Both the position numbers and the translations under genes were made by a program. Below are positions 375 through 47,661 of a stretch of 49,712 bases of DNA, one piece after another; within the stretch, counting starts at the first letter, position 1; every line of letters starts with the position of its first letter. The DNA is from Planctomycetota bacterium. GTDB lineage: Bacteria > Planctomycetota > Planctomycetia > Planctomycetales > Planctomycetaceae. The notes beneath the pieces were generated by a model. That model was not told the origin of the DNA. It saw only the letters and a program-made list of their open reading frames with translations, and did no database searches. The DNA is taken from assembly GCA_018242565.1 (NCBI GenBank), contig JAFEBR010000724.1, positions 1 to 49,712 on the forward strand, given 5' to 3'.

Positions 375-998
375 ATGCGACATCATATCATCATCACTGG
401 CACTGGCCGGGCGGGCACCACGTTCCTCGTTCGGCTGTTTACTTATCTGGGGTTCGATACCGGATTCACGAAAAAGTCGGCCATCGATCCGGTTGCACAT
501 GCCGGACTGGAAACAGTCATTGAAGACTGGAATGCCCCGTACATCGTGAAACAGCCCCAGCTTTGTGAGCGGCTGGATACCATTATGGAGCGCGGGGATA
601 TCCTGATTGATCACGCGATCATTCCCCGGCGAGATCTGTTTGCCGCTGCCGAGAGCCGGCGCGTCAACGCGCGGCAAAACCCGAAGGTCACCCCCAGCGA
701 AGTCATTGGCGGAACATTCGGCACCGACAGCCTGGCAGTTGGCGACCAGGAAGCGGCGTTGCAACGGCTCGAAAAGAAGCTGTGGGACGCCATCAGCACC
801 TACCAGATTCCGTACACCGAATTGTGGTTTCCGGACGATTTCCAGGATGCCGAACGGCTGTTCCAGAAGCTGGGTCCCGTTTTCGACTGCGTCGCGGAAG
901 AGCAGGGGATTCGAGTGACTCCCGCCAAATTTCTCGCCACGCATAGCGAACTCTGGAATCCGAAACTCGTGCACAAGTACCAACCACCGGCTTCGTGA
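375..998 (+). CDS. Sulfotransferase-like P-loop protein
   Basis: A 207-residue protein whose first strand and loop, ITGTGRAGTTFLVRL (about residues 7-21), match the PAPS-binding P-loop of sulfotransferases (family pattern GxxRSGTT; here GRAGTT). The rest is short compared with typical 250-300 residue sulfotransferases and I do not recognise the canonical 3'-phosphate-binding region, so it may be a compact nucleotide-binding relative. ATG at 375 is the first codon that keeps the P-loop at the N-terminus. It stands alone and is convergent with the DUF1501 gene (49 bp gap). A role in sulfating a cell-surface sugar or lipid is an inference from the P-loop only. Confidence 0.7.
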   Translation: MRHHIIITGTGRAGTTFLVRLFTYLGFDTGFTKKSAIDPVAHAGLETVIEDWNAPYIVKQPQLCERLDTIMERGDILIDHAIIPRRDLFAAAESRRVNARQNPKVTPSEVIGGTFGTDSLAVGDQEAALQRLEKKLWDAISTYQIPYTELWFPDDFQDAERLFQKLGPVFDCVAEEQGIRVTPAKFLATHSELWNPKLVHKYQPPAS

Positions 999-1047
999 TC
1001 ACAACAACCGCGCGAACGGGTTTGTGGATCGGCGATCAACCGATCGC

Positions 1048-2544
1048 TTACGCCAGGACTTTCTGAATCACCTTGCGATTCCCTTCGACGCCGGTCAGGC
1101 GCTGGTCGAGTCCCTGGTAGAAGTAACTGAGCTGGGTGTGGTCGAGTCCCATCAGATGCAGAATCGTGGCGTGCAGATCGGACACGTGACACGGTTCTTC
1201 GACCGCACGGAAACCCAGTTCATCGGTGGACCCAATGGTCTGGCCACCTTTCACGCCGCCACCCGCTAACCACATGGTGAATCCATACCAGTCGTGGTCG
1301 CGACCGGGCTTGCCAACCCCTTCGCTGGTGGGGGTGCGTCCAAATTCGCCACCCCAGATCAGCAACGTGTCTTCCCACAATCCCGAGCGTTTCAGATCGT
1401 TGATCAGGGCGGCGATGGGCTGGTCGGTCTCTGCGGCATGCAACGTGTGATTCGCGATGCAGTTGTTGTGGCCATCCCACGTGTCTTCGATGTGTCCCCC
1501 CCCGGAATAGAGTTGGACGAATCGCACGCCCCGCTCGAGCAGTCGGCGGGTGATCAGGCATTTGCGACCGAAGTCGGACGTGACTTTTTCATCCAGGCCG
1601 TACATGCGGCGCGTCACGGGATCTTCGTTATCGAGATTCACCACCTCGGCGGCGGTCGTCTGCATCTGGTAGGCGAGTTCGTAGGTGTGAATCCGGGCGG
1701 CCAGTTCCGACTCGGCCGGTCGTTCGCGCAAGTGTTCGCGATTGAGCGTGGCCAGCAGATCGAGCGTTTCGCGCTGGGCGCGGGGAGTGACCCCGGCGGG
1801 GGTGGCCAAATCCAGCAACGGCGAGCCCACGCTGCGGAACAGGGTCCCCTGGTAGGCGGCGGGCATATAACCGGCCGTCCAGTTCGAGGCGCTGCCGATC
1901 GGTCCACCCCGTGGATCGGTCATGACAACAAAGCTGGGCAGGTTCTCGGTTTCGCTCCCCAGTCCATAACTCAGCCAGGAACCGAGCGAAGGCTTGCCAA
2001 TGGTGATCGCACCCGTATTCATTTGCAGACAGCCCGAGGCATGGGCGGCGGTGTCGGCATGCATCGAGCGGATGACGCACAAGTCGTCGGCATATTTTGA
2101 CAGGTGCGGATACAGACTGCTGATTTCGATGCCGCTCTGCCCGTATTTGCGAAATTCAAAGGGGGACGCCATGAGGTGCCCGACCGGGCGGCCATTGGAA
2201 CCCACCTGCAGGCCCGGCGCCGGCGCGTACGGCTTGCCGTCGAACTTTTTCAATTCCGGCTTGGGGTCAAACGTATCGACCTGGCTGGGGCCCCCGTTCA
2301 TAAACAGAAATACGGCCCGCTTGGCCCGCGCTGGGAGTTGGGGCACCTTGGGGGCCAACAGGTAATTGGCGGTCGCCGGGGCCGAATCGGCGGCGAGGGC
2401 TTGCCGGGTTAAAACCCCGTCGCGACTCAACAGGTCGAGCAAGGCCAAACCGGCAAACCCGCCGCCGACCTGCCAGAGAAACTCGCGACGCGTCTGGCCA
2501 CACGGCGTGCAATTGGGAATAAAGCGGTTCAGCGGTTCTTGCAT
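1048..2544 (-). CDS. DUF1501 secreted protein with Tat signal
   Basis: A 498-residue member of the DUF1501 family (alkaline phosphatase/sulfatase-like fold), which is greatly expanded in Planctomycetota. The N-terminus has a twin-arginine motif, RREFLWQVGGGFAGLALL (residues about 19-36), so export is probably by Tat. Family landmarks include GCLQMNTGAITIGKPSLGSW, the metal-site-like stretches GGGHIEDTWDGHNN and WGGEFGRTP, and RDHDWYGFTMWLAGGG. DUF1501 genes usually sit directly beside a DUF1549/DUF1553 cytochrome-like gene; none is adjacent here, the only such gene being at the far end of the window. Substrate is unknown. Confidence 0.93.
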   Translation of the reverse strand: MQEPLNRFIPNCTPCGQTRREFLWQVGGGFAGLALLDLLSRDGVLTRQALAADSAPATANYLLAPKVPQLPARAKRAVFLFMNGGPSQVDTFDPKPELKKFDGKPYAPAPGLQVGSNGRPVGHLMASPFEFRKYGQSGIEISSLYPHLSKYADDLCVIRSMHADTAAHASGCLQMNTGAITIGKPSLGSWLSYGLGSETENLPSFVVMTDPRGGPIGSASNWTAGYMPAAYQGTLFRSVGSPLLDLATPAGVTPRAQRETLDLLATLNREHLRERPAESELAARIHTYELAYQMQTTAAEVVNLDNEDPVTRRMYGLDEKVTSDFGRKCLITRRLLERGVRFVQLYSGGGHIEDTWDGHNNCIANHTLHAAETDQPIAALINDLKRSGLWEDTLLIWGGEFGRTPTSEGVGKPGRDHDWYGFTMWLAGGGVKGGQTIGSTDELGFRAVEEPCHVSDLHATILHLMGLDHTQLSYFYQGLDQRLTGVEGNRKVIQKVLA

Positions 2545-24754: not shown

Positions 24755-26173
24755 ATGTCGAATCATACCTATCGTACCGCCCCTGTAGCGACCACCGGCA
24801 TGCCCCCCGGCATTCCGAACATCATCGGCAACGAAGCCGCCGAGCGATTCAGTTTCTATGGGATGAAGGCCATTCTGACCGTCTTCATGACCAAGTTTCT
24901 GGTCGATGCGGCCGGGCAACTCGACCTGATGTCGGAATCCCAGGCGAAATCGTATTACCACCTGTTCGTCGCGTCAGCGTATTTTTTCCCGGTGATCGGG
25001 GCCATTGTCGCCGACGTCTGGTTCGGCAAATACAACACGATTATCGCTTTGTCGCTGGTGTACTGTCTGGGTCACCTGGCATTGGCGCTCGATGAAACCC
25101 GACTCGGGTTATTTGCCGGCCTGGCGTTGATTGCCATCGGATCGGGGGGCATCAAACCCTGCGTTTCGGCTCACGTCGGCGACCAATTCGGCCAGTCGAA
25201 CGCGCACCTGATTTCCAAAGTGTTTGGCTGGTTCTATTTCTCGATCAATTTCGGGTCGTTTTTTTCGCAGATCCTGACCCCCTGGCTGCTGGAAGGATTT
25301 CCGGAATGGCTCGTCAGCACACTGTCGATTGAATCCGCGGAAGCAAAGGCCCGCTGGTTGAAAATCGGGCCCCACGTCGCGTTCGGCGTCCCGGGCATCC
25401 TGATGCTCATCGCCACGATCATTTTCTGGGTCGGCCGCAATAAGTATGCACACATCCCCGCGCAGGGCACGGCGAAAGTTTTCGGCGCCCTCAAGGGTGG
25501 TGGCTGGAAGATTCTGCTGAAACTGGTCCCGGTCTACCTGCCGATTTCGGTCTTCTGGGCGCTCTACGATCAAACGGGTTCCTCGTGGGTCTTGCAGGCC
25601 GACAAGATGAACCGCGACTGGCTGGGCCACAACTGGCTCGCCTCGCAGGTCCAGGCGATTAACCCGCTGTTGATCCTGATCACCGTGCCGCTGTTCTCGT
25701 ACGTGGTCTACCCGGCGCTCGGCAAGGTCGTGCGTCTCACCTCAGTCCGTAAGATCACCGTGGGACTGTTCCTGACGGTGGTCGCGTTCTCGATCTGCTC
25801 GTTCGCCCAGGAACGGATTGACGCCGGCGAGCACCCCAGCATCGCCTGGCAGGTGGCCGCCTTCTTCGTGCTCACGGTCGCCGAAGTGCTCGTTTCGACC
25901 ACCGGCCTGGAATTCTCGTACACCCAGGCGCCACGAGAGCTGAAATCGTTCGTGATGTCGATGTGGCTGCTGTCGGTCTCGGCCGGCAACGTGATCGCCG
26001 GTTTCGTCAATAAGTTCATCCAGAACGACGACGGCACTTTGAAACTCAACGGTGCCGAGTACTTCTGGTTCTTTACCAAGCTCATGGTCGGCGCGGCGGT
26101 CGCCTTCCTGATCGTCTCGTTCTTCTACACCGAAAAGACCTACATTCAGGAAGAACAGGCCGCCACCCACTAG
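24755..26173 (+). CDS. POT/PTR family proton-coupled peptide transporter
   Basis: A 472-residue major-facilitator transporter of the proton-dependent oligopeptide (POT) family. The first helix carries the signature NEAAERFSFYGMKAIL, matching ExxERFxYYG with the proton-coupling Glu-Arg pair. About 12-14 membrane helices follow, including ALIAIGSGGIKPCVSAHVGD (the second POT signature) and VSTTGLEFSYTQAP. It imports di- or tripeptides with protons. Its TAG stop is followed at once by the ATG of the CoA-transferase gene, so the two are cotranscribed. The MLE-like gene lies divergently upstream, separated by a palindrome-bearing region. Confidence 0.95.
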   Translation: MSNHTYRTAPVATTGMPPGIPNIIGNEAAERFSFYGMKAILTVFMTKFLVDAAGQLDLMSESQAKSYYHLFVASAYFFPVIGAIVADVWFGKYNTIIALSLVYCLGHLALALDETRLGLFAGLALIAIGSGGIKPCVSAHVGDQFGQSNAHLISKVFGWFYFSINFGSFFSQILTPWLLEGFPEWLVSTLSIESAEAKARWLKIGPHVAFGVPGILMLIATIIFWVGRNKYAHIPAQGTAKVFGALKGGGWKILLKLVPVYLPISVFWALYDQTGSSWVLQADKMNRDWLGHNWLASQVQAINPLLILITVPLFSYVVYPALGKVVRLTSVRKITVGLFLTVVAFSICSFAQERIDAGEHPSIAWQVAAFFVLTVAEVLVSTTGLEFSYTQAPRELKSFVMSMWLLSVSAGNVIAGFVNKFIQNDDGTLKLNGAEYFWFFTKLMVGAAVAFLIVSFFYTEKTYIQEEQAATH

Positions 26174-33059: not shown

Positions 33060-36000
33060 TCAAGGTGTTCCTGGGTGGATCAATTGCTCAGCCTCGCGTC
33101 GCAATTGTTCGACTTCAGCTTTCTCGGTCCAGGCCGCCTTCGGATTAGCCTCTGTCCATGCCGCGGCCAGTGCCAGATTCTGTCGCGCGGCATCGGGGTT
33201 CCCGAGTCGGTGCTGAATCATCGCCAGAAACAAGTAATCCCAGGCGACCAGTGGGAAAATCTTGGCCGAGTCTTCGAAATGAGACAGCGCTGCCGAATAA
33301 TCCCCCAGGCGATAGCGGACGGCGCCCGTCACACGCTCTTTGCCGAGACTCTCGCGGGCGACGTGGTTCAGTTGCTTCAGCGTCGCCAGAGTCGAAGGCT
33401 GCCATTGATCCAATGGAAGCACTGTGTACAAGACCCGCAAAGCGACACCCTCTTCGTTGATCTGGGCGAAATGCCGTAACACATCCCGGCATGTCTCACG
33501 CCAGCGGTCGAATCGACCTGCGACCAGCTCGGCATCGACGGCGAGATACCAGGCGCGAGCATCGTCTGGATCCTGCCGAATCACGGCCACAAAGTCGGCG
33601 ATTCCATTCGACAACTCTCCGGTTCTTATCCGGTACTCCCCCCGACCCAGTAACGCGCCGGTGTTCGTCGAATCGCTTCGCAAAACGGTGCTGAAATCTT
33701 CGATCGCCTGCACCAGATTGCCTTCGTAAAGGGCTTCCTGTCCATGCTGCACGTAAATGGGGGCGTAACGCGGCAGGATCGCCAAATCAAACGCCACCAG
33801 TTCATCATAGGTGAAATCACGCCCGACCTCGCGCAACACCCGGCTGAGCAGGCGCGGTGCATTGAGATCCCATAGATGAACACGGCGCTGCGGACTCTGA
33901 TCGATCGTCACCAGCCAGGATTCGTCTCCACTGAAGGCCGCATTATTGAAATGGCTGGGCAGATTCTGCGAGAGTTCGTGGAAACGCAGATCGAGCAGCA
34001 TCGCGGAGGGTTCCGACGGCTTTGCCAGATCCCAGAGCCGGACCGACTTTTCCGGTTCGTCGGAGTAAGCGAAATCGCTGTCACTGAAGAGAAACGTACC
34101 GGCACCCATGACGAGCCGTTGTCCCTGGGGACCGAACAGCATGCGCGGCGACAGATAGTCACTGCGCAAGATCGACAACAACTGCGGCGCCTGGCTGGGC
34201 ATTACCGCAAACAGTCGCACATTTTTGTCAAATGTCCCCACGGCCAACAGGCGGCTGTCGGGGCTGAATTTCATAGAACAAACCAGCCAACGATCGGCAT
34301 TGGCGATCGGTAACACGCCGGCTGCCTGCTGTGGAGTGTGCAGGTCCCAAATCCGAACCGTTCTGCCCCCAGCAACCAACCAGCGTGAATCAGGGCTGAT
34401 GGCCAACATAGGGGCATCATAATTCAAGTCCTCCACGGCCAGTGTCAGTTTTCTGCCGGCAGGCTCGTCACCCCCCAGGTCATACAGATCGAGAATCCAT
34501 TTCCCGGTCCCACTCTCCGGTTGATCGGTGCGGACCTGTTGGTTTAAGATCGCCAGCCAGCGATTGTCTCGACTCATGACGTGGCGGGTGATTGATCCGT
34601 CGGTCGTCTCCAAGAGCCGCGGGTCTAACTCAGGATGCGGTTTCTCTAAATCCCATAATGTCATGCGCCGGCACACGGGGGCGGTGCGCTGGGGAACTAT
34701 TTCCGACCGCCAGGTCACGAGCCAGCGACCGCCGGGACTCACCCGTGCCAACGACTTTTCAACGAGTGCCAGCATGCTGCCGGCGGGATCGGTTGCTTCG
34801 AGATTCCAAAGCAGGACCTCCTGTTCGTTGTAAAACTGCGATCCCGCCACGAGCCAACGATCTTTTCCGCCAAAAACGACGAACTCAGGCTCCCCGGCAT
34901 TGGGCATCCGCAACGGCTTCCAGGCGTCTTTGCCGAATTGCAGGTCATGGACGATGAGTCCCTGTGCAGTTCGAGCCACCAGCCGACGTCCATCGGAACT
35001 GAATGCCAAGGGTACGTTGGGGGGCTCGTCCGCCTCCTTACGTGACGTCACAGGCTGATTTGTTTCGCTGACCAGACGTGCGTCACCCTCGGTGGTCTCC
35101 TCGATCGACCACACCTGCGGTTCGTCGTTCTGCAGATCCCACAGACCCAGTCGGCCATCGGGCCGACAACACGCTAGCCACCGTTGATCGGGACTCATCA
35201 CTAACTCCGGTGCCGCCGCCGGCAAGGTTCCCAGCTCAATCGGGGCGATGGCTGTCCGAGGCATGGAGAGGTTCCATAGTCGCGGAATTGAGCCAGAATC
35301 CGAGGTGAAAAGCCAACGGCTGTCCGGGCTGATGGTTAGCGATGAAATAACCCCTTCAATTCCCCCCAGGACCTGTGCCGTCGTGGCGGGGTCTGGTGCT
35401 TGCAGATTCCAACGGCGGATCGAAACGGAATCGTAACTGACGAGCCATTGCTGGTCGGCACTGATGGCGAAATCTGGAAACTGAGTCTCGTGACCTGACA
35501 AAGCGGTAGCGCCCGAAGTGGCGGTGGAAATGGGTAATGAACGGATCCGAATCACCGAGCCGTCGGCGTAAACGCAACTTTTGCTGTCCGGTGTGAATTG
35601 AATTCGCACGACACGATTGGGCAATACGACAACACTGGCGGCCACATCGGCAACCTGCAGGTCGTAGACTCGAGTTTCGGCCCCCTGCGTAACCAGCCAG
35701 CGACTGTCAGGGCTAACTGTCATTGCATAGATCGAATCCGATTGAGGCGACAAAACTTGCGGATTTGCCGTCGGGTCTGCCGACTCCAATGAGTACAAGG
35801 TGGGGAATTTCCCGTTAATCACCAGCGCACGATCATCTGGACTGATGGCCACGACGTCGCCACTCGTCTGCTCGTTCAGGGGAAACACCTGGACACTGCT
35901 CTGAGGATCCGGACTCTGTAGATTCCACAGGCGCACGGTATGGTCTTGGGCCGCGGACACGAGCCAGTGGCCGTCGGCAGTGTTCGCCAGTTCTTCGATA

Positions 36001-38213
36001 TATGCCGAGTGACCATGCAGTTCGATGTGGCTCTCGGCAGGTTGCGGACTCGACAGATCCCAAAGGTGAATCACATGATCGACGCTGGTTGTCATGAGCC
36101 AGCGCGGGCTCTTCCCAATTCTATTGAAGGCCTGGAAACAACCGCGACTGCCACTCAGGACGACTGGATCGTCAAGGGAGGGGGCGCCGGTCAGATCCCA
36201 CAGTTGGGCCGAATCGTCGTAGGTGCCGATGACGAGCGAGCGACTGTCCCGACTGAAAGCCAGGCCGGACAATTGCTGACCGTTGGTTGGTACAATCGCA
36301 GGCTCAATCGTCGGATCGGAAATCGATAAATCCCAGAGTCGCGCCATTCCCTGCTGTACGGTGGCCAGCCAGCGGCCATCAGGACTGAATACGGACAGAC
36401 TCGCACCTCCCCCTTGCAAGACTTGGCCACCCAGTGACTGACAGGCATCAAATAGCTCTTCCAGTGCGCGGGGACTGACAGGCTCGCCAAATGTGCTGGT
36501 GGCCTCAGCAGCGGCAATCGCTAACAGCGCACTTCGCTGTGGGAATCGAGGCCGCATCAGCCGCGACAGCGCCGCCAGCCGTTCGGCAGTCGCGATATGC
36601 AGTTGTCGCTCGGCGGCGATATGCGCACGCCGCTCGGCTTGTGCCACTTCCGACTTCTCTTCGGCCAGTCGATTCTTTTCTTCAGCCAGCTTTTCGGCCC
36701 TTGTCCTGGCGTCGGCTTCCCGGCTGGCCGACTGGATCGCGTCTCGGCGCGATTGATTGATAATCACGGCAGCCAAAAGCGAGACGACGGCGACCAATAC
36801 AATCGCCACTGCTCCTGTGCGCACATACCCGCGGTGCCTGCGCGCAAAACGACTGGCGCGCTCCGCCAACGTATCCGGTGCGGCAGCGATCGGTTCGTCG
36901 GCCAGCCAGTGCTCAAGATCATCAGCCAGGGCCCGTGCCGACGGATACCGTTGAGACGGCAGGAGTGCCATCGCTTTCAGACAGATCGCTTCCAGACCGC
37001 GGGGCACGTCGGCGACCACATCTCGTGGCCGGGGAAAACTGCCCCGCTGGACTTTGGACAGAATGATCTCGAGCTGGTCTTTTTCAAACGGCGGTCGGCC
37101 GCACAGAATGTGGTAGAGGGTCGCCCCCAGGCTGTACACATCACTCGTGGGCCCTAGATCACCCAATTGACCCACCGCCTGTTCGGGACTCATATATGAC
37201 GGAGTCCCGATCGCCGAACCCGGTTGCGTTTGTCCGCTGCTGCTCAGCGCCGACGCTGGCTGCAGCGACAGTTCTTCCGACAGAATTTCTTTGCGTCCGA
37301 CAGCCTTGGCGAGGCCCCAGTCGACGACCAGCGTCTCGCCGTATTTGCCGACCATGATGTTGCCCGGCTTGAGATCACGGTGCAGCACACCCCGGCTGTG
37401 GGCATATTCCATGGCCTGACAGACATCGATGAATCGCCCCAGCAGCTGACGCAATTCCAGCAGGCGTAATCCCAGCTTGTGACGGTTCGGATTGTCGGCC
37501 CGATGGTACGCTTCCAGCGCGTCTTTCAGGCTGTCTCCCTTGATGAACCGCATCGCGTAATACGGTCGGCCCGCCGCATCCTGCCCCAGTGCGTAGACGG
37601 GGACAATTCCCGGATGCTCCAGGCCGCCGGTAATTTCTGCTTCCAGGACGAACCGCTCGCGACTGATTTCATGATCCGCATGTTTAGGCTGGATCTCTTT
37701 CAGAGCCACTTCCCGGTGGAGTTCGGAATCATAGGCGACAGAGACCTGGCCGAGTCCCCCTTTGGCATGTGGACGCAGGATCCGGAACCGGCCATGCGAG
37801 TTCGTGCTGGGATCGATGCGCGGCGATGTCTGGTAGGGATCGTCGGACCGGGAATCAGGCACGATGAACGTCAGACTGGCTTGCAGATCGGAATCGGCGA
37901 GTCGTTCAAGGTCAGGACGTAGCTCGGGGCTGGGACTGAGCGCCGCCAGACTTTTTTCCGGATCCCCTTGATGCTTCTTCAAAAACCGATCGACCAGCGT
38001 TTGCAGCGCCGTTCGGTCATCTGGCAAGAGGGCCTGTCGCTGTTCGAGAATTTCAGCCAGAGACTGGGACTTATTCATTACCCAGACATCGAACGCGGCG
38101 ACCAGTTGTTCGCGCGTAATGAAATTGCTTTGCAAAGCAATGATGCCGAACAAGAGCTGTGAGTTGGCGAGAAAGCCATCTGACCCGAAATTCTGTGCTG
38201 GCTGACTCGCCAT
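33060..38213 (-). CDS. Giant Ser/Thr kinase with WD40 and TPR domains
   Basis: A 1717-residue membrane kinase. Order: an N-terminal module typical of planctomycete kinases (1-110, LLFGIIALQSNFITREQLVA, EKSLAALS); kinase domain (about 140-440) with a glycine loop AKGGLGQV (150-157), Lys172 (VALKEI), HRDLKPGN (278-285), DWG instead of DFG (VDWGLAK, 297-303) and SPEQ; a membrane helix (466-486); a charged coiled coil (490-550); many WD40 repeats (about 590-1470, e.g. SPDSRWLVT, RLWDL); and a TPR-like helical tail (about 1490-1717). The kinase is cytoplasmic and the propellers should lie across the membrane. A signalling role is clear, the ligand is not. It lies inside the block flanked by aroDE-like copies. 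Confidence 0.93.
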   Translation of the reverse strand: MASQPAQNFGSDGFLANSQLLFGIIALQSNFITREQLVAAFDVWVMNKSQSLAEILEQRQALLPDDRTALQTLVDRFLKKHQGDPEKSLAALSPSPELRPDLERLADSDLQASLTFIVPDSRSDDPYQTSPRIDPSTNSHGRFRILRPHAKGGLGQVSVAYDSELHREVALKEIQPKHADHEISRERFVLEAEITGGLEHPGIVPVYALGQDAAGRPYYAMRFIKGDSLKDALEAYHRADNPNRHKLGLRLLELRQLLGRFIDVCQAMEYAHSRGVLHRDLKPGNIMVGKYGETLVVDWGLAKAVGRKEILSEELSLQPASALSSSGQTQPGSAIGTPSYMSPEQAVGQLGDLGPTSDVYSLGATLYHILCGRPPFEKDQLEIILSKVQRGSFPRPRDVVADVPRGLEAICLKAMALLPSQRYPSARALADDLEHWLADEPIAAAPDTLAERASRFARRHRGYVRTGAVAIVLVAVVSLLAAVIINQSRRDAIQSASREADARTRAEKLAEEKNRLAEEKSEVAQAERRAHIAAERQLHIATAERLAALSRLMRPRFPQRSALLAIAAAEATSTFGEPVSPRALEELFDACQSLGGQVLQGGGASLSVFSPDGRWLATVQQGMARLWDLSISDPTIEPAIVPTNGQQLSGLAFSRDSRSLVIGTYDDSAQLWDLTGAPSLDDPVVLSGSRGCFQAFNRIGKSPRWLMTTSVDHVIHLWDLSSPQPAESHIELHGHSAYIEELANTADGHWLVSAAQDHTVRLWNLQSPDPQSSVQVFPLNEQTSGDVVAISPDDRALVINGKFPTLYSLESADPTANPQVLSPQSDSIYAMTVSPDSRWLVTQGAETRVYDLQVADVAASVVVLPNRVVRIQFTPDSKSCVYADGSVIRIRSLPISTATSGATALSGHETQFPDFAISADQQWLVSYDSVSIRRWNLQAPDPATTAQVLGGIEGVISSLTISPDSRWLFTSDSGSIPRLWNLSMPRTAIAPIELGTLPAAAPELVMSPDQRWLACCRPDGRLGLWDLQNDEPQVWSIEETTEGDARLVSETNQPVTSRKEADEPPNVPLAFSSDGRRLVARTAQGLIVHDLQFGKDAWKPLRMPNAGEPEFVVFGGKDRWLVAGSQFYNEQEVLLWNLEATDPAGSMLALVEKSLARVSPGGRWLVTWRSEIVPQRTAPVCRRMTLWDLEKPHPELDPRLLETTDGSITRHVMSRDNRWLAILNQQVRTDQPESGTGKWILDLYDLGGDEPAGRKLTLAVEDLNYDAPMLAISPDSRWLVAGGRTVRIWDLHTPQQAAGVLPIANADRWLVCSMKFSPDSRLLAVGTFDKNVRLFAVMPSQAPQLLSILRSDYLSPRMLFGPQGQRLVMGAGTFLFSDSDFAYSDEPEKSVRLWDLAKPSEPSAMLLDLRFHELSQNLPSHFNNAAFSGDESWLVTIDQSPQRRVHLWDLNAPRLLSRVLREVGRDFTYDELVAFDLAILPRYAPIYVQHGQEALYEGNLVQAIEDFSTVLRSDSTNTGALLGRGEYRIRTGELSNGIADFVAVIRQDPDDARAWYLAVDAELVAGRFDRWRETCRDVLRHFAQINEEGVALRVLYTVLPLDQWQPSTLATLKQLNHVARESLGKERVTGAVRYRLGDYSAALSHFEDSAKIFPLVAWDYLFLAMIQHRLGNPDAARQNLALAAAWTEANPKAAWTEKAEVEQLRREAEQLIHPGTP

Positions 38214-43175: not shown

Positions 43176-43778
43176 TTACGCGTCACCCAACTGTTTTCGC
43201 AGTCGACGGAGGACTCGGCTTTTGGCCTGCCGGACGGCCATCGAGGTCATTGACAGTTCTTCTGCCACTCTGGTCGCGGACTGGCCCAGAACCGCCGTTT
43301 TCCAGAAGGCCTCCCACGTGTGTTCCTCGAGTTCCGGTCGGATCTGATCGAGCGCCCGCGAAATCAAGTTGGCTAAATCATTCGAATCAGTGGGAGGGCT
43401 GTCTCCGGCGGCATCGACGCACGGATCGGGAATCTCAGACAAGCGAGCGAGAGCCGTGCTGCCCCCGGTTCCGGCCGGCTCATTTCGTCGCCACCATTGT
43501 AAGATGGCATTGCGCGTGATCGTCCACACCCAGCCACGAAATGTCGCTCGCGGATGTGTCGGATCGAATTTCGCGATCCCACGATGCACGGCCAGAAAGA
43601 CTTCCTGGCCAATGTCCGCCCGCGCGGCAGCCTCCACGCCCAGTTGTCGGCACCAACTCTCGATCAACGGAGCGTAAAGGCTGACCAGGTCGGCCCACGC
43701 GAGGGCAGATCCCTCCTGAATGCGGGCCGCCAGACTCAAGCCGCTAGAACTCTCAGAGCTGGTAACTGTGGAAGGCAT
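43176..43778 (-). CDS. ECF RNA polymerase sigma factor
   Basis: A 200-residue ECF sigma factor with regions 2 and 4 only. Region 2 (about 27-95): DLVSLYAPLIESWCRQLG, ARADIGQEVFLAVHRGIAKF (DxxQEVF signature), and FRGWVWTITRNAILQWWRR, which holds the -10 recognition helix. Region 4 (about 138-195): WEAFWKTAVLGQSATRVAEE and MTSMAVRQAKSRVLRRLRKQ, the -35 helix-turn-helix. The start is ATG 43778; the frame extends 32 codons further without similarity. It is divergent from a kinase whose N-terminus has an anti-sigma zinc motif, the arrangement reported for planctomycete kinase-linked ECF groups. That protein is its likely regulator. Confidence 0.94.
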   Translation of the reverse strand: MPSTVTSSESSSGLSLAARIQEGSALAWADLVSLYAPLIESWCRQLGVEAAARADIGQEVFLAVHRGIAKFDPTHPRATFRGWVWTITRNAILQWWRRNEPAGTGGSTALARLSEIPDPCVDAAGDSPPTDSNDLANLISRALDQIRPELEEHTWEAFWKTAVLGQSATRVAEELSMTSMAVRQAKSRVLRRLRKQLGDA

Positions 43779-43887
43779 ATCGCCGAGTGTAAACCGGCGT
43801 CTGCAGTCTCCGCCAGCCAGGATTTCATCGCTGGAATGCCAACTTGGCCGGCGCGACGGAATGCCCTGGGCCAAGGGATCGCAGATT

Positions 43888-43900
43888 TACGTCGGACGTA
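43888..43900. promoter_or_regulatory. Inverted repeat between divergent sigma and kinase genes
   Basis: TACGTC-G-GACGTA, a 6-bp perfect inverted repeat, lies in the 288-bp divergent spacer between the ECF sigma and kinase-adaptor genes. It may be an operator; short enough to arise by chance. Confidence 0.25.
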
Positions 43901-44066
43901 CAAGCGGTCCATTTTGTCGCCACCGGCGCGTCACACCCCTGCATTGAACCTGTGAGTGGATAACAAAACCTCTGAGGCGGATGCGATTGGGGTGAGCGAA
44001 ACAGCCCACAAATGGTCTTGTTACAAGTTGTTGATGTCACAAAACATTCCAGATGGAAAACAAATC

Positions 44067-46697
44067 ATGGCCCAGCTCGATTGCCCGAATAACCAGACCT
44101 TGCGGAATTACCTGCTCGGCAAATGTTCCGACGTGCTGTCCGTGGAAATCGAAGGGCATTTGTCGCACTGCTCCGAGTGCGAAGCGACAATTTCTCAATT
44201 CGATTCGGCCGACGATACCCTGCTGCGACATTTACCGCTGGCACCAGCGGCAGCGACCTCTGAACCAGAGGATCCGCCGGGTTGGATCCACGAGTTGCGG
44301 CAGGAGCCGCCAGCGGAGGGCGGCGGCGACATGCGCCCTGACAACCTCGGCAGAATTCCTTCGACGGCCGAAGTCCACGAGATGCCCCCTTTGCCCGACG
44401 GCTGCGCCAATTACGAGTTGCTGGGAGTGTTGGGGCGAGGAGGCATGGGGGTCGTCTTTCTGGCACGCCATCGGCAGTTGAATCGCCGGGTCGCGCTCAA
44501 GGTCGTCCGTCCCGACGCCCTCTCCAGCAGAGAGGCACGGCAGATGTTTCAGCGGGAAATTCAGATTCTCGGTCAGCTCAATCATCCGGGAATCGTCATG
44601 GCGACCGACGCGGGAACGGTGGCGTCTGGGGCCTATCTGGTGATGGAACTGATCGAAGGAGCAGACCTCGGCCGGGTCGTCCGAGAGGGTGGCCCGCTGA
44701 CCGTTGAAGCTGCCTGTGCCGTCGGAAGGCAGGTGGCCGAGGCCCTCGCGGCAGCGCATGGCAGCGGGGCCATTCATCGCGACGTGAAGCCTTCAAACAT
44801 CATGGTCGATTTGAATGGCCGCGCGCGACTGCTGGATTTTGGCCTGGCGCACATGACCCTGATGATGCAACACAGCGGCGATACCTCGGTAGGCCGCCTG
44901 CTGGGAACGCTCGACTACATGGCCCCGGAACAGGCTGGTGGCCAGTGCCCGGTTGACTCGCGAGCCGATCTGTACAGCCTGGGGGCGACGCTGTTCTTCC
45001 TGCTCACGGGGCGCCCCCCGCACGGCTCGCGAAAGGGCCGCTCGATGTTGGAGCAGATTCGGGCCATTTCCCATGAAGATGCCGTGCCGGTCAGCTCGAT
45101 TCGTGTGGACGTGCCAATTGAACTCGACCGGCTCGTGGCATCGTTACTGTGCCGCGACCCCGAACGCCGTCCTCTGTCGGCTGCCGACGTAGCCGCCGTA
45201 CTCGCGCGTTGGGCGGGCGGGAACTTGGGGACTCGCGTGGCCGATCTTGTACCGCGCCTGCCCATTGCCGAGCAGACTGCAGCCGACAGCGTGGCAGCCA
45301 GGCAATCGTTTGTCGCGCTGTTGGGAACCGAAGCCCTGGGGCCGGCCAGCACGGCGGCACCGCCCGCGGTCCGTCCCGTGCGCGGGCGATTTTGGGGAAA
45401 GTGGACGGCTCTGGCCGCGTGGGCCGGAATCGTTCTGGGCGGTGTCACGATCTGGCTGAAGACTTCACAGGGAACCCTCAAGATCGAATCGGAAGTTGGC
45501 GACGTAACCGTCGAAGCCATTGACGAACGGAACCAGGTCCGCGAGTTGCAGATCAAACAGGGAAACAACGAGACGATCCTCGAAACCGGGACGTACCGCG
45601 TGCGACTGGCGGGAACGCACGATGGGATCGCGCTCGACCGCGACGTGATCCGATTGCATCGCGGGGACGCGACGGTGGCGAAGATTCTGCGCGTCGCCGA
45701 TGACGCCGGGGCAGATCGACCAGAGGGACATCGCCAGATCAGAATTGCCAACCCGGAAAGAAAGAACGTCACGATCCGTGAGAAATTTGTCTGCCAGATC
45801 CAGTCGCATCGCCACATCAAGGTCCGCGCCCTGGAGCGCGGGTATCTCGAGGAGATCCACCTCAAGGAAGGCCAGATGGTCAAGAAAGGCGATCTGCTGT
45901 TCAAAATTACTCCGATAATTCTTCAGGCCCGGCTCGACGTCGAGCTGGCCGAGCAACAACATGCCCAATTGCAGTACGACGCCACCAAGAGACTGTTCGA
46001 TCATAATGTCGTCAGTGCGGGGGAGTTGGGATTGCACGCGGCCAACCTGAAAAAGGCCGAGGCCAAAGTGGCGGAGGCCCGAGCTGAATTGAACTTTGCC
46101 AGTGTTCGAGCACCCTTTGACGGCTTGATTGGCAGACTGCAGCAACAGCAAGGCAGTCTTTCGAACGCGGGGGATGAGCTCACGACCTTGTCCGATAACA
46201 GCCTGATGTGGGTCTATTTCCATGTTCCCGAAGCCCGTTACCTCGAGTTCATGAGCGACGTGAATCAGCCGCGCGAGGATTTGCAAATCGAGCTCGTGCT
46301 GGCAAATGGTCGGAAGTATCAGCAGGCCGGGAAGATCAGCGCGATTGAGTCGGACTTCGACCACGAGAAAGGGAGTATCGCGTTCCGCGCTGATTTCCCG
46401 AACCCGGACCGGCTACTGCGTCATGGTCAGGCGGGCACTGTGTCGATCAGCCGAGAACTCAAGGACGCGATCGTCATACCGCAGCAGGCCACGTTCGAGA
46501 TTCTCCAAAAGCGGTACGTGTATGTCATCGACAAAGACCACGTAGCGCACCGGCGCGAAATTGTCGTCCAGAATGAACTTGACGACCGGTTGGTCGTCAA
46601 GCAGGGTTTGGATGCAGGAGACACCCTTGTGGTCGACGGAATCCGACAGGTTCGCGATGGCGGGAAGGTGGATCTGGGTGACGGGGCTACGCCCTGA
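44067..46697 (+). CDS. Anti-sigma/Ser-Thr kinase/periplasmic adaptor fusion
   Basis: An 876-residue fusion. Residues 1-50: zinc anti-sigma motif HxxxCxxC (His31, Cys35, Cys38; HLSHCSEC). 116-385: Ser/Thr kinase with GRGGMG (123-128), Lys145, HRDVKPSN (237-244), DFG (257-259) and APEQ, all catalytic residues present. 446-464: one membrane helix. 465-545: a beta domain seen after the helix in planctomycete kinases. 560-870: a complete HlyD/AcrA-type membrane fusion protein: lipoyl half IKVRALERGYLEEIHLKEGQ, coiled-coil hairpin (about 620-675), second lipoyl half SVRAPFDGLIGRLQ, beta barrel and membrane-proximal domain ending VVDGIRQVRDGGKV. ATG 44067 is chosen; 44034 is possible. No pump gene follows. 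Confidence 0.92.
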   Translation: MAQLDCPNNQTLRNYLLGKCSDVLSVEIEGHLSHCSECEATISQFDSADDTLLRHLPLAPAAATSEPEDPPGWIHELRQEPPAEGGGDMRPDNLGRIPSTAEVHEMPPLPDGCANYELLGVLGRGGMGVVFLARHRQLNRRVALKVVRPDALSSREARQMFQREIQILGQLNHPGIVMATDAGTVASGAYLVMELIEGADLGRVVREGGPLTVEAACAVGRQVAEALAAAHGSGAIHRDVKPSNIMVDLNGRARLLDFGLAHMTLMMQHSGDTSVGRLLGTLDYMAPEQAGGQCPVDSRADLYSLGATLFFLLTGRPPHGSRKGRSMLEQIRAISHEDAVPVSSIRVDVPIELDRLVASLLCRDPERRPLSAADVAAVLARWAGGNLGTRVADLVPRLPIAEQTAADSVAARQSFVALLGTEALGPASTAAPPAVRPVRGRFWGKWTALAAWAGIVLGGVTIWLKTSQGTLKIESEVGDVTVEAIDERNQVRELQIKQGNNETILETGTYRVRLAGTHDGIALDRDVIRLHRGDATVAKILRVADDAGADRPEGHRQIRIANPERKNVTIREKFVCQIQSHRHIKVRALERGYLEEIHLKEGQMVKKGDLLFKITPIILQARLDVELAEQQHAQLQYDATKRLFDHNVVSAGELGLHAANLKKAEAKVAEARAELNFASVRAPFDGLIGRLQQQQGSLSNAGDELTTLSDNSLMWVYFHVPEARYLEFMSDVNQPREDLQIELVLANGRKYQQAGKISAIESDFDHEKGSIAFRADFPNPDRLLRHGQAGTVSISRELKDAIVIPQQATFEILQKRYVYVIDKDHVAHRREIVVQNELDDRLVVKQGLDAGDTLVVDGIRQVRDGGKVDLGDGATP

Positions 46698-46719: not shown

Positions 46720-47196
46720 ATGGAAGTCGCACCATATCCAAATGGAGGATTGCGCAAACAGTTCTTTCTACAGCCAGGGAATCGAACTAAATTTGTTTAC
46801 GATGTGGCCTTCAACCCCGATGGCGAGCAGGTGGCGTCGGTCGCCTGGGACGGAACGTTGAGGCTGTGGAATGCGACGACGGGTCAGCAGACGCACCTTT
46901 CGAAACATGAATCGGTGATCTTGTCGGGCGTCTCTTACAGTCGCAACGGCCGGCGACTGGTGACGACTGAGAGGGCAGTCGGCGTGACCCTGTGGGATGT
47001 CGAATTCGGTCAAGCGATCAGGACCTTTTCAGCTCCTGTGAAGGAAGGTGACGTGCGCGCGGTTTTGAATCCCGACGGCACGATCATGGCGGTTGGATCG
47101 CATACGGGGATCGTGACTCTGTGGGATACAAACACGATCCAGGAGCTGGGCCAACTGCAGGGGCATGACGCGGGTCGATTTGTCCGGGACGTGTGA
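46720..47196 (+). CDS. WD40 propeller, first part (interrupted gene)
   Basis: A 158-codon frame holding WD40 blades 1-3 and the start of blade 4: VYDVAFNPDGEQVASVAWDG..LRLWN, SYSRNGRRLVTTE..VTLWD, VRAVLNPDGTIMAVGSH..VTLWD, then RFVRDV and TGA. The same frame continues without break after the stop with FTPDGKRLATAS, the natural continuation of blade 4, so a nonsense change (or sequence error) has cut one gene in two. It starts 22 bp after the kinase-adaptor stop and in a different frame. As written it could yield only a half propeller. No signal peptide or membrane helix is seen, so a cytoplasmic product is expected. Confidence 0.75.
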   Translation: MEVAPYPNGGLRKQFFLQPGNRTKFVYDVAFNPDGEQVASVAWDGTLRLWNATTGQQTHLSKHESVILSGVSYSRNGRRLVTTERAVGVTLWDVEFGQAIRTFSAPVKEGDVRAVLNPDGTIMAVGSHTGIVTLWDTNTIQELGQLQGHDAGRFVRDV

Positions 47197-47217
47197 TTTA
47201 CGCCGGATGGCAAGCGG

Positions 47218-47661
47218 TTGGCCACCGCCAGCCAGGATTCGACCATCCGCATCTGGGATGTCGCCACTCATACTTGCGAGATGACGATCGCCGCCCAAGA
47301 CTGTTATCGCATTACCTGCAGTGCCGACGGGAACCTGCTGGCCTGCAGTTGTGGCGACAAGACGGTTCGATTCTGGGAGATGACGTCGCCGGAGGAAATC
47401 GGAAAGGTCTACCTCGGAAGTACGGTCTATGGCCTGTCCTTCAGTCCCGACGGCACGCGGTTGGCAGCCGGTTGTGCGGACAATACCATTCGCATCCTCG
47501 ACGTAGCCACCCGCCAGGAAGTCGTCGAATTGCAGGGGCACTCAAATTTCGTGCATGCCGTGGCATTCAGCTCTGACGGAACGCGTCTGGTCTCAGGCTC
47601 CGGAGATCATACTGTCCGCATCTGGGATACCCTGCCTGCCTACAAGCGGGCGGGAAAGTAG
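47218..47661 (+). CDS. WD40 propeller, second part (interrupted gene)
   Basis: Continuation, in the same frame, of the propeller cut by TGA at 47194-47196. It carries the rest of blade 4 (RLATASQDSTIRIWD) and blades 5-7 (SADGNLLACSCGDKTVRFWE, SFSPDGTRLAAGCADNTIRI, AFSSDGTRLVSGSGDHTVRI), ending in a basic tail. Together with the first part it makes exactly seven blades, a full propeller. A TTG at 47218 is the first possible start, with no good Shine-Dalgarno, so independent translation is doubtful. WD40 propellers are commonly fused to planctomycete kinases; here the propeller is a separate gene after the kinase-adaptor. Confidence 0.7.
   Translation: MATASQDSTIRIWDVATHTCEMTIAAQDCYRITCSADGNLLACSCGDKTVRFWEMTSPEEIGKVYLGSTVYGLSFSPDGTRLAAGCADNTIRILDVATRQEVVELQGHSNFVHAVAFSSDGTRLVSGSGDHTVRIWDTLPAYKRAGK

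Follow-up and report, generated by a model that had tools for sequence, protein, structure and literature searches.

The window analysed here is a 49,712-nucleotide stretch of a draft planctomycete genome (GenBank assembly GCA_018242565.1, contig JAFEBR010000724.1, positions 1 to 49,712 of the forward strand; contig C947 in our numbering). Towards its end we found a divergent pair of genes, one for an extracytoplasmic function (ECF) sigma factor and the other for an 876-residue fusion protein that carries, in this order, a zinc anti-sigma domain, a Ser/Thr kinase, a probable transmembrane (TM) helix, a linker and a periplasmic adaptor of the resistance-nodulation-division (RND) efflux pump type. 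The sigma gene lies at 43176..43778 on the minus strand and encodes 200 residues from the ATG at 43778, with an upstream TTG in the same open reading frame (ORF) at 43874; its product matched Sigma70_r2 of Pfam (50 bits) and TIGR02937 of NCBIfam (63.6 bits, cut-off 42.9). The fusion gene occupies 44067..46697 on the plus strand, where the frame is open from 43956 (913 residues) to 46697 and the natural start is the ATG at 44067.

The N-terminal domain of the fusion (residues 1-48; 44067..44210, plus strand), recognised by alignment and profile as zinc anti-sigma-like, contains the motif H31-x3-C35-x2-C38, and residues G18, H31, C35 and C38 were invariant across 19 aligned N-termini. Taken alone, the window protein scored below the Pfam cut-off for zf-HC2 (16.5 vs 22.2); a profile built from the 19 homologous N-termini matched the anti-sigma factors DdvA (8rlz) and ChrR (2q1z) with E-values of about 1.5e-6. 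The PknB-like Ser/Thr kinase (residues 114-386; 44406..45224, plus strand) was identified by its match to Pkinase PF00069 over residues 116-370 (163.9 bits, E-value 6e-48), by the fold of its model (Z 19.6 to PknB, rmsd 3.9 over 224 aligned residues, VIA-align) and by the signature of an active kinase, with a G-loop at 123-128, the VAIK lysine K145, E164, HRD at 237-239 and DFG at 257-259. A probable single TM helix at residues 446-464 (45402..45458, plus strand) was assigned from hydropathy (1.62), the basic stretch RPVRGRFWGKW before it and comparison with homologues. The beta-rich, probably extracytoplasmic linker that follows (residues 465-552; 45459..45722, plus strand) is homologous to the corresponding region of kinases with other C-terminal domains, e.g., with 46% identity over 110 residues to a 1719-residue kinase of genome G018. 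Confidence in the structure model was high over residues 11-40, over the greater part of the kinase and over residues 556-870. A preliminary description of this stretch had claimed a single chain of 876 residues with a zinc motif at His31, Cys35 and Cys38 and a Ser/Thr kinase bearing its catalytic residues, all of which was borne out.

The remainder of the chain forms a periplasmic adaptor of the RND type (residues 556-870; 45732..46676, plus strand) with membrane-proximal, barrel and lipoyl domains and a coiled-coil hairpin at residues 617-678 (45915..46100, plus strand), modelled as helices 617-645 and 651-678. It matched TIGR01730 (RND_mfp, NCBIfam) with 223.4 bits against a cut-off of 94.9, covering positions 3-320 of 322, and HlyD_D23 and HlyD_3 of Pfam also exceeded their cut-offs in the C-terminal half. 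The top sequence matches in PDB were AcrA and MexA (E-value 2e-23), at about 25% identity, and the model of residues 556-870, with pLDDT mostly above 90, aligned to AcrA with Z 24.0 and rmsd 7.1 over 327 residues (9a2v, VIA-align) and with Z 23.0 and rmsd 6.7 over 320 residues (9tg4). The earlier claim of a complete adaptor with lipoyl, hairpin and barrel parts, together with the domain search and the comparison of a predicted structure with AcrA that had been proposed as checks on it, therefore came out in its favour, and the feared mismatch of residues 560-870 to the adaptor family did not occur. The zinc domain, kinase, TM helix and linker stand where an adaptor would usually have a short N-terminal anchor or lipobox. 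At the hairpin tip, compared with an R-L-S motif, L643-x6-S650 is present and the arginine at L-4 is absent, as it is in stand-alone relatives. Its nearest relatives form, together with it, a subfamily found in planctomycetes, with 50-62% identity among the stand-alone members, and a stand-alone paralogue encoded on contig C1223 of the same genome (54% identical) adjoins an HAE-1 pump gene.

An error of sequencing or assembly near residue 550, joining two separate genes, had been feared. The genome is a draft of 1252 contigs, the exact protein was found in no other genome, and immediately 3' of the fusion gene there is a 43-bp repeat that also occurs on contig C65, all of which would suit an assembly chimera or a chance in-frame fusion without function. 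Against this, the 43-bp repeat sits beyond the stop codon, and no exact repeat of 20 or more bases was found at the kinase-adaptor join in comparison with the loci fetched from the same genome. The DNA of 45300-46200 had no close second copy in the genome, where its best other match, with 72% identity along 137 bp, fell in the adaptor paralogue of C1223. GC content at third codon positions was uniform along the gene (0.69-0.74). The same arrangement recurs in a second planctomycete, genome G084, on a contig of 876 kb. The adaptor branch, moreover, resembles those of functional copies: its length of 0.44-0.52 is of the same order as the stand-alone median (0.31-0.38), which also argues against decay of the adaptor. 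The join bears no obvious mark of an assembly artefact, and we regard a chimera or functionless fusion as extremely unlikely.

Directly 3' of the fusion gene is an ORF for a seven-blade WD40 domain (46749-47661, plus strand), which starts at the 43-bp repeat and has an in-frame TGA at 47194-47196; it may be the remnant of what was once a WD40 sensor domain, or of an adjacent gene. We rejected it as a part of the receptor, given the intervening stop codon of the adaptor, its start at the repeat and its in-frame TGA. On C65 (L237 1467-1514, 1709-4576) a 22-mer, found in only three copies genome-wide, makes up a near-perfect hairpin; alongside are three tyrosine recombinases in tandem (a RIT-like trio) that adjoin an RHS-repeat gene.

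No RND, outer-membrane-channel or ABC genes, nor any transporter that depends on an adaptor, were found among the window proteins scanned, the lone transporter noted being of the POT family (24755-26173), and contig C947 gave no match to ACR_tran (RND) or OEP; the earlier observation that no pump stands beside the fusion holds as far as this contig reaches, which is 3 kb downstream of the fusion. Elsewhere the same genome has many RND pump and outer-membrane-channel genes, including the HAE-1 pump gene on C1223. Across the subfamily, an RND gene adjoined the stand-alone adaptors at 14 of the 18 loci examined and the fused ones at none of 11, which we take as a strong trend and not as a statistical result, and one that, read from gene order, points to loss of the pump neighbour in the fused copies.

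The N-terminal half of the window protein belongs to a larger family. At the 42 loci we fetched around the nearest homologues of the window sigma factor, a kinase gene adjoined the sigma gene in 36, and 34 of the 36 kinase proteins scanned had Hx3Cx2C near the N-terminus, most with a TM helix after the kinase. Their C-terminal domains were diverse and included WD40, LRR with or without LamG, FGE-sulfatase, TPR, CsgG, Tll0287-like, DJ-1 and DUF11 domains, a carboxypeptidase-regulatory-like domain and adaptors. With an ECF gene adjoining a zinc-motif kinase that has a TM helix and a variable C-terminus, the window chain is a member of this family. In a tree of the heads, that of the window protein was sister (100/100) to the head of the 1719-residue G018 kinase, which has a different C-terminus, so that the two adaptor-bearing heads are non-sisters and at least two changes of adaptor label are forced. 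Judged from these sequences, the many exchanged C-terminal domains and the head tree indicate that swapping of the extracytoplasmic domain is normal in the head family, the adaptor being an unusual choice. Planctomycete kinases with periplasmic WD40, TPR and FGE-sulfatase domains have been published (PMC11032199).

Junction and adaptor searches for further kinase-adaptor fusions, proposed in the preliminary description and covering about 760 distinct genomes, returned among the matches listed only one, in G084, and one further scan of genome contigs gave no fusion closer than this. The G084 protein (L141 5818-9849) is a chain of 1343 residues, encoded divergently from an ECF gene as in the window, with a zinc motif, kinase, TM helix, linker and three tandem adaptor units in that order. 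The coiled-coil hairpin is absent from all three units. A model of the second nonetheless aligned to AcrA (Z 20.4, rmsd 7.4, 286 residues) and to BesA (Z 18.4, rmsd 4.6, 251 residues), whose structure was solved without a hairpin. With three units per chain, two such chains would suffice for a ring of six that brings two kinases together, a suggestive arithmetic; the triple hairpinless units look like a natural single-chain half ring.

We also checked long ORFs carrying the window-type adaptor for fusions, and found the same subfamily on two other kinds of signalling protein. Direct ECF-adaptor fusions were present as five proteins in four genomes (G086 L145, G636 L263, G470 L265 and L269, and G506 L268), and in all five both Sigma70 regions 2 and 4 exceeded the Pfam cut-offs, with region 2 of L145 marginal (24.9 vs 24); the hairpin was absent from L268 and L269. 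Fusions of the adaptor to an M56 (BlaR1-type) peptidase numbered four proteins in three genomes (G582 L260, G499 L261, and G759 L267 and L285), the second G759 protein (L285) being known from BLAST and sequence only, and a Penicillinase_R (BlaI) gene was immediately upstream of L260, L261 and L267, the three checked. Two more candidates, L218 and L284, were rejected, their long frames probably being stop-to-stop artefacts. At L267 an extra ORF for a hairpinless adaptor (710-1984, plus strand) follows an apparent M56 tail and is probably a truncated M56-adaptor gene. In the adaptor tree the fused copies needed five label changes, two of them forced by well-supported branches, a pattern consistent with repeated recruitment.

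The closest homologues of the window sigma factor were those of G018 (51% identity) and G084 (47%), both encoded divergently from related zinc-kinase genes. As a kinase gene adjoins the sigma gene, direct phosphorylation might activate the sigma factor, on the pattern of ECF43 (EcfP/PknT), the zinc motif then being merely structural. In ECF43, according to reviews, the DAED sequence is replaced by STTA, which contains Ser and Thr (PMC8103513, PMC8999054). The corresponding region of the window sigma factor reads ARAD, with one acidic residue fewer, which speaks for such a switch; it has no Ser or Thr, however, and most relatives keep D-x-x-D, and for these reasons we disfavour a phospho-switch of the ECF43 kind. 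The zinc motif, moreover, is found in almost all members of the family, and its similarity is to anti-sigma structures. We consider direct activation by phosphorylation rather unlikely. A search of the window's sigma/kinase intergenic region for an ECF promoter of the form AAC...CGT found none; a weak shared element, GTGTGAC, was present there instead (43930..43936, minus strand, 5' of the sigma gene), a candidate promoter or operator. It occurs 5' of the sigma genes in the window, L141, L142 and L179, i.e., in all four members of the window kinase sub-clade, but the signal is weak once the search is allowed for. About 5 kb from the sigma gene the window encodes a second kinase (33060-38213, minus strand), of 1717 residues with WD40 and TPR repeats.

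We think it likely that the fusion is a one-chain receptor controlling the divergent ECF sigma factor, in which the zinc N-terminus would hold the sigma factor, the kinase would act as a switch and the adaptor as the sensor; the membrane kinase to which the adaptor is fused, in other words, probably controls the neighbouring sigma factor. The adaptor would have been taken from an HAE-1 RND pump lineage and joined to a zinc-kinase head that already existed, at the site where its relatives carry a WD40, LRR or other sensor domain. In the cell, the zinc N-terminus would bind the sigma factor, one helix would cross the inner membrane and the adaptor would sense in the periplasm. RND adaptors assemble as rings on pumps, and dimerisation activates PknB-like kinases. 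As adaptors form pump rings, assembly of an adaptor complex could rearrange the kinases fused to it: assembly or disassembly, or occupancy by substrate, may cluster or rearrange the kinase domains, possibly in a ring mixed with the 54%-identical stand-alone paralogue from C1223. The kinase would then phosphorylate its own anti-sigma or linker region, or the sigma factor, and the freed sigma factor may transcribe envelope or efflux genes. More tentatively, the adaptor lineage may, through several recruitments within Planctomycetota, serve as an interchangeable sensor for three unrelated chassis (zinc anti-sigma/kinase, the ECF sigma factor itself and BlaR1/BlaI), reporting efflux assembly or substrate load through adaptor rings, and so constitute a kind of receptor that has not been described; we hold this as an idea that falls short of probable.

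A sensor role for the adaptor is supported by the swapped domains of the head family, the layout in G084, the ECF and BlaR1-type fusions and the missing pump neighbours. The preliminary description had gone further and proposed that export traffic, or binding of an outer-membrane channel, is reported to the kinase and on to the ECF sigma factor; of this, a sensory role for the adaptor in an ECF/anti-sigma/kinase system was supported, and the signal that it named is conjectural. Docking to an outer-membrane channel is disfavoured as the general signal because neither the G084 kinase fusion nor two of the ECF fusions have the hairpin; the window protein itself keeps the hairpin and L643/S650. 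The same losses suit an adaptor that acts as a generic beta-rich sensor of ligands or partners (metals, lipids, envelope debris) and has no contact with a pump. That a hairpinless repeat is still AcrA-like and BesA-like in fold, that fused copies have no pump neighbour and that other family members carry unrelated binding domains all speak for such a sensor, whereas the window adaptor still has its full set of domains, the hairpin among them, and is 50-62% identical to pump-linked adaptors, more than a mere binding domain would require; we take such a generic sensor as a serious possibility, short of an even chance. The intact hairpin of a complete adaptor, and the many RND and channel genes elsewhere in the genome that it could serve, would also fit an adaptor that still functions in efflux and has a kinase to regulate the pump, the sigma factor being secondary. 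We judge this very unlikely: what the ECF and BlaR1-type fusions share is transcriptional control, not pump phosphorylation, and the hairpinless fused forms would be unable to bridge to an outer-membrane channel.

Several points weigh against the receptor as we propose it. The single membrane helix of the preliminary description is supported by hydropathy and a basic flank, but residues 446-464 were disordered in the structure model, in which no membrane helix was seen there, and much of residues 385-553 was of low model confidence. The G084 fusion, hairpinless and strongly diverged, may not sense the same thing as the window protein. The flanks searched for pumps differed in length (1.5-8 kb), and the stand-alone comparison loci were mostly picked by similarity rather than at random. 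No close orthologue of the exact fusion was found. Even so, repeated recruitment of an efflux adaptor as a sensor is the best reading of the whole.

The likenesses to known systems are partial. ECF groups linked to Ser/Thr kinases are known (PMC8103513, PMC8999054), as are the architectures of planctomycete Ser/Thr kinases (PMC11032199). The ECF-linked planctomycete kinases share with the window protein a cytoplasmic kinase, a single TM helix, a C-terminal extracytoplasmic domain and an ECF gene alongside; the window kinase adds the zinc N-terminal motif and beta-rich linker common to its own head family, and differs in having an RND periplasmic adaptor as its putative sensor domain. The main text of PMC11032199 mentions neither HlyD nor efflux. 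With AcrA and MexA the window adaptor shares the full domain set and fold, but its anchor is replaced by a kinase and TM helix and no pump or channel gene is adjacent. Zinc class I anti-sigma factors such as ChrR and DdvA likewise have an Hx3Cx2C helical domain and a gene beside that of their ECF sigma factor; the window domain differs in sharing its chain with a catalytic kinase and an adaptor. EcfP/PknT has in common the kinase gene beside the ECF gene, whereas the window sigma factor is without a phosphorylatable Ser/Thr in the DAED region and the kinase chain has a zinc anti-sigma-like domain. In G582, G499 and G759, BlaR1-type M56 peptidases have a member of this adaptor subfamily where their usual sensor would be; BlaR1/BlaI is another signalling chassis, absent from the window. 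We found no report of an HlyD/RND adaptor fused to a Ser/Thr kinase, ECF sigma factor or BlaR1 in the literature searched, with key ECF classification and planctomycete surveys outside its reach.

The window system is best described as an ECF-linked zinc-kinase receptor with a probable efflux-adaptor sensor, and in its outline the sensor idea has good support. Efflux adaptors, which ordinarily assist in the export of drugs, count as structural ducts, and for a specialist the most surprising part would be a single efflux adaptor lineage on three signalling chassis. Its members seem to form the sensory part of no fewer than three kinds of transcriptional regulator, where the pump gene has disappeared and, in some, the channel-docking hairpin as well. 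These proteins are natural experiments on what an adaptor alone can sense, and offer a direct route to testing whether a cell senses the condition of its own efflux machinery. They would also suggest concrete inputs for the planctomycete ECF-kinase systems, a large group with mostly unknown signals.

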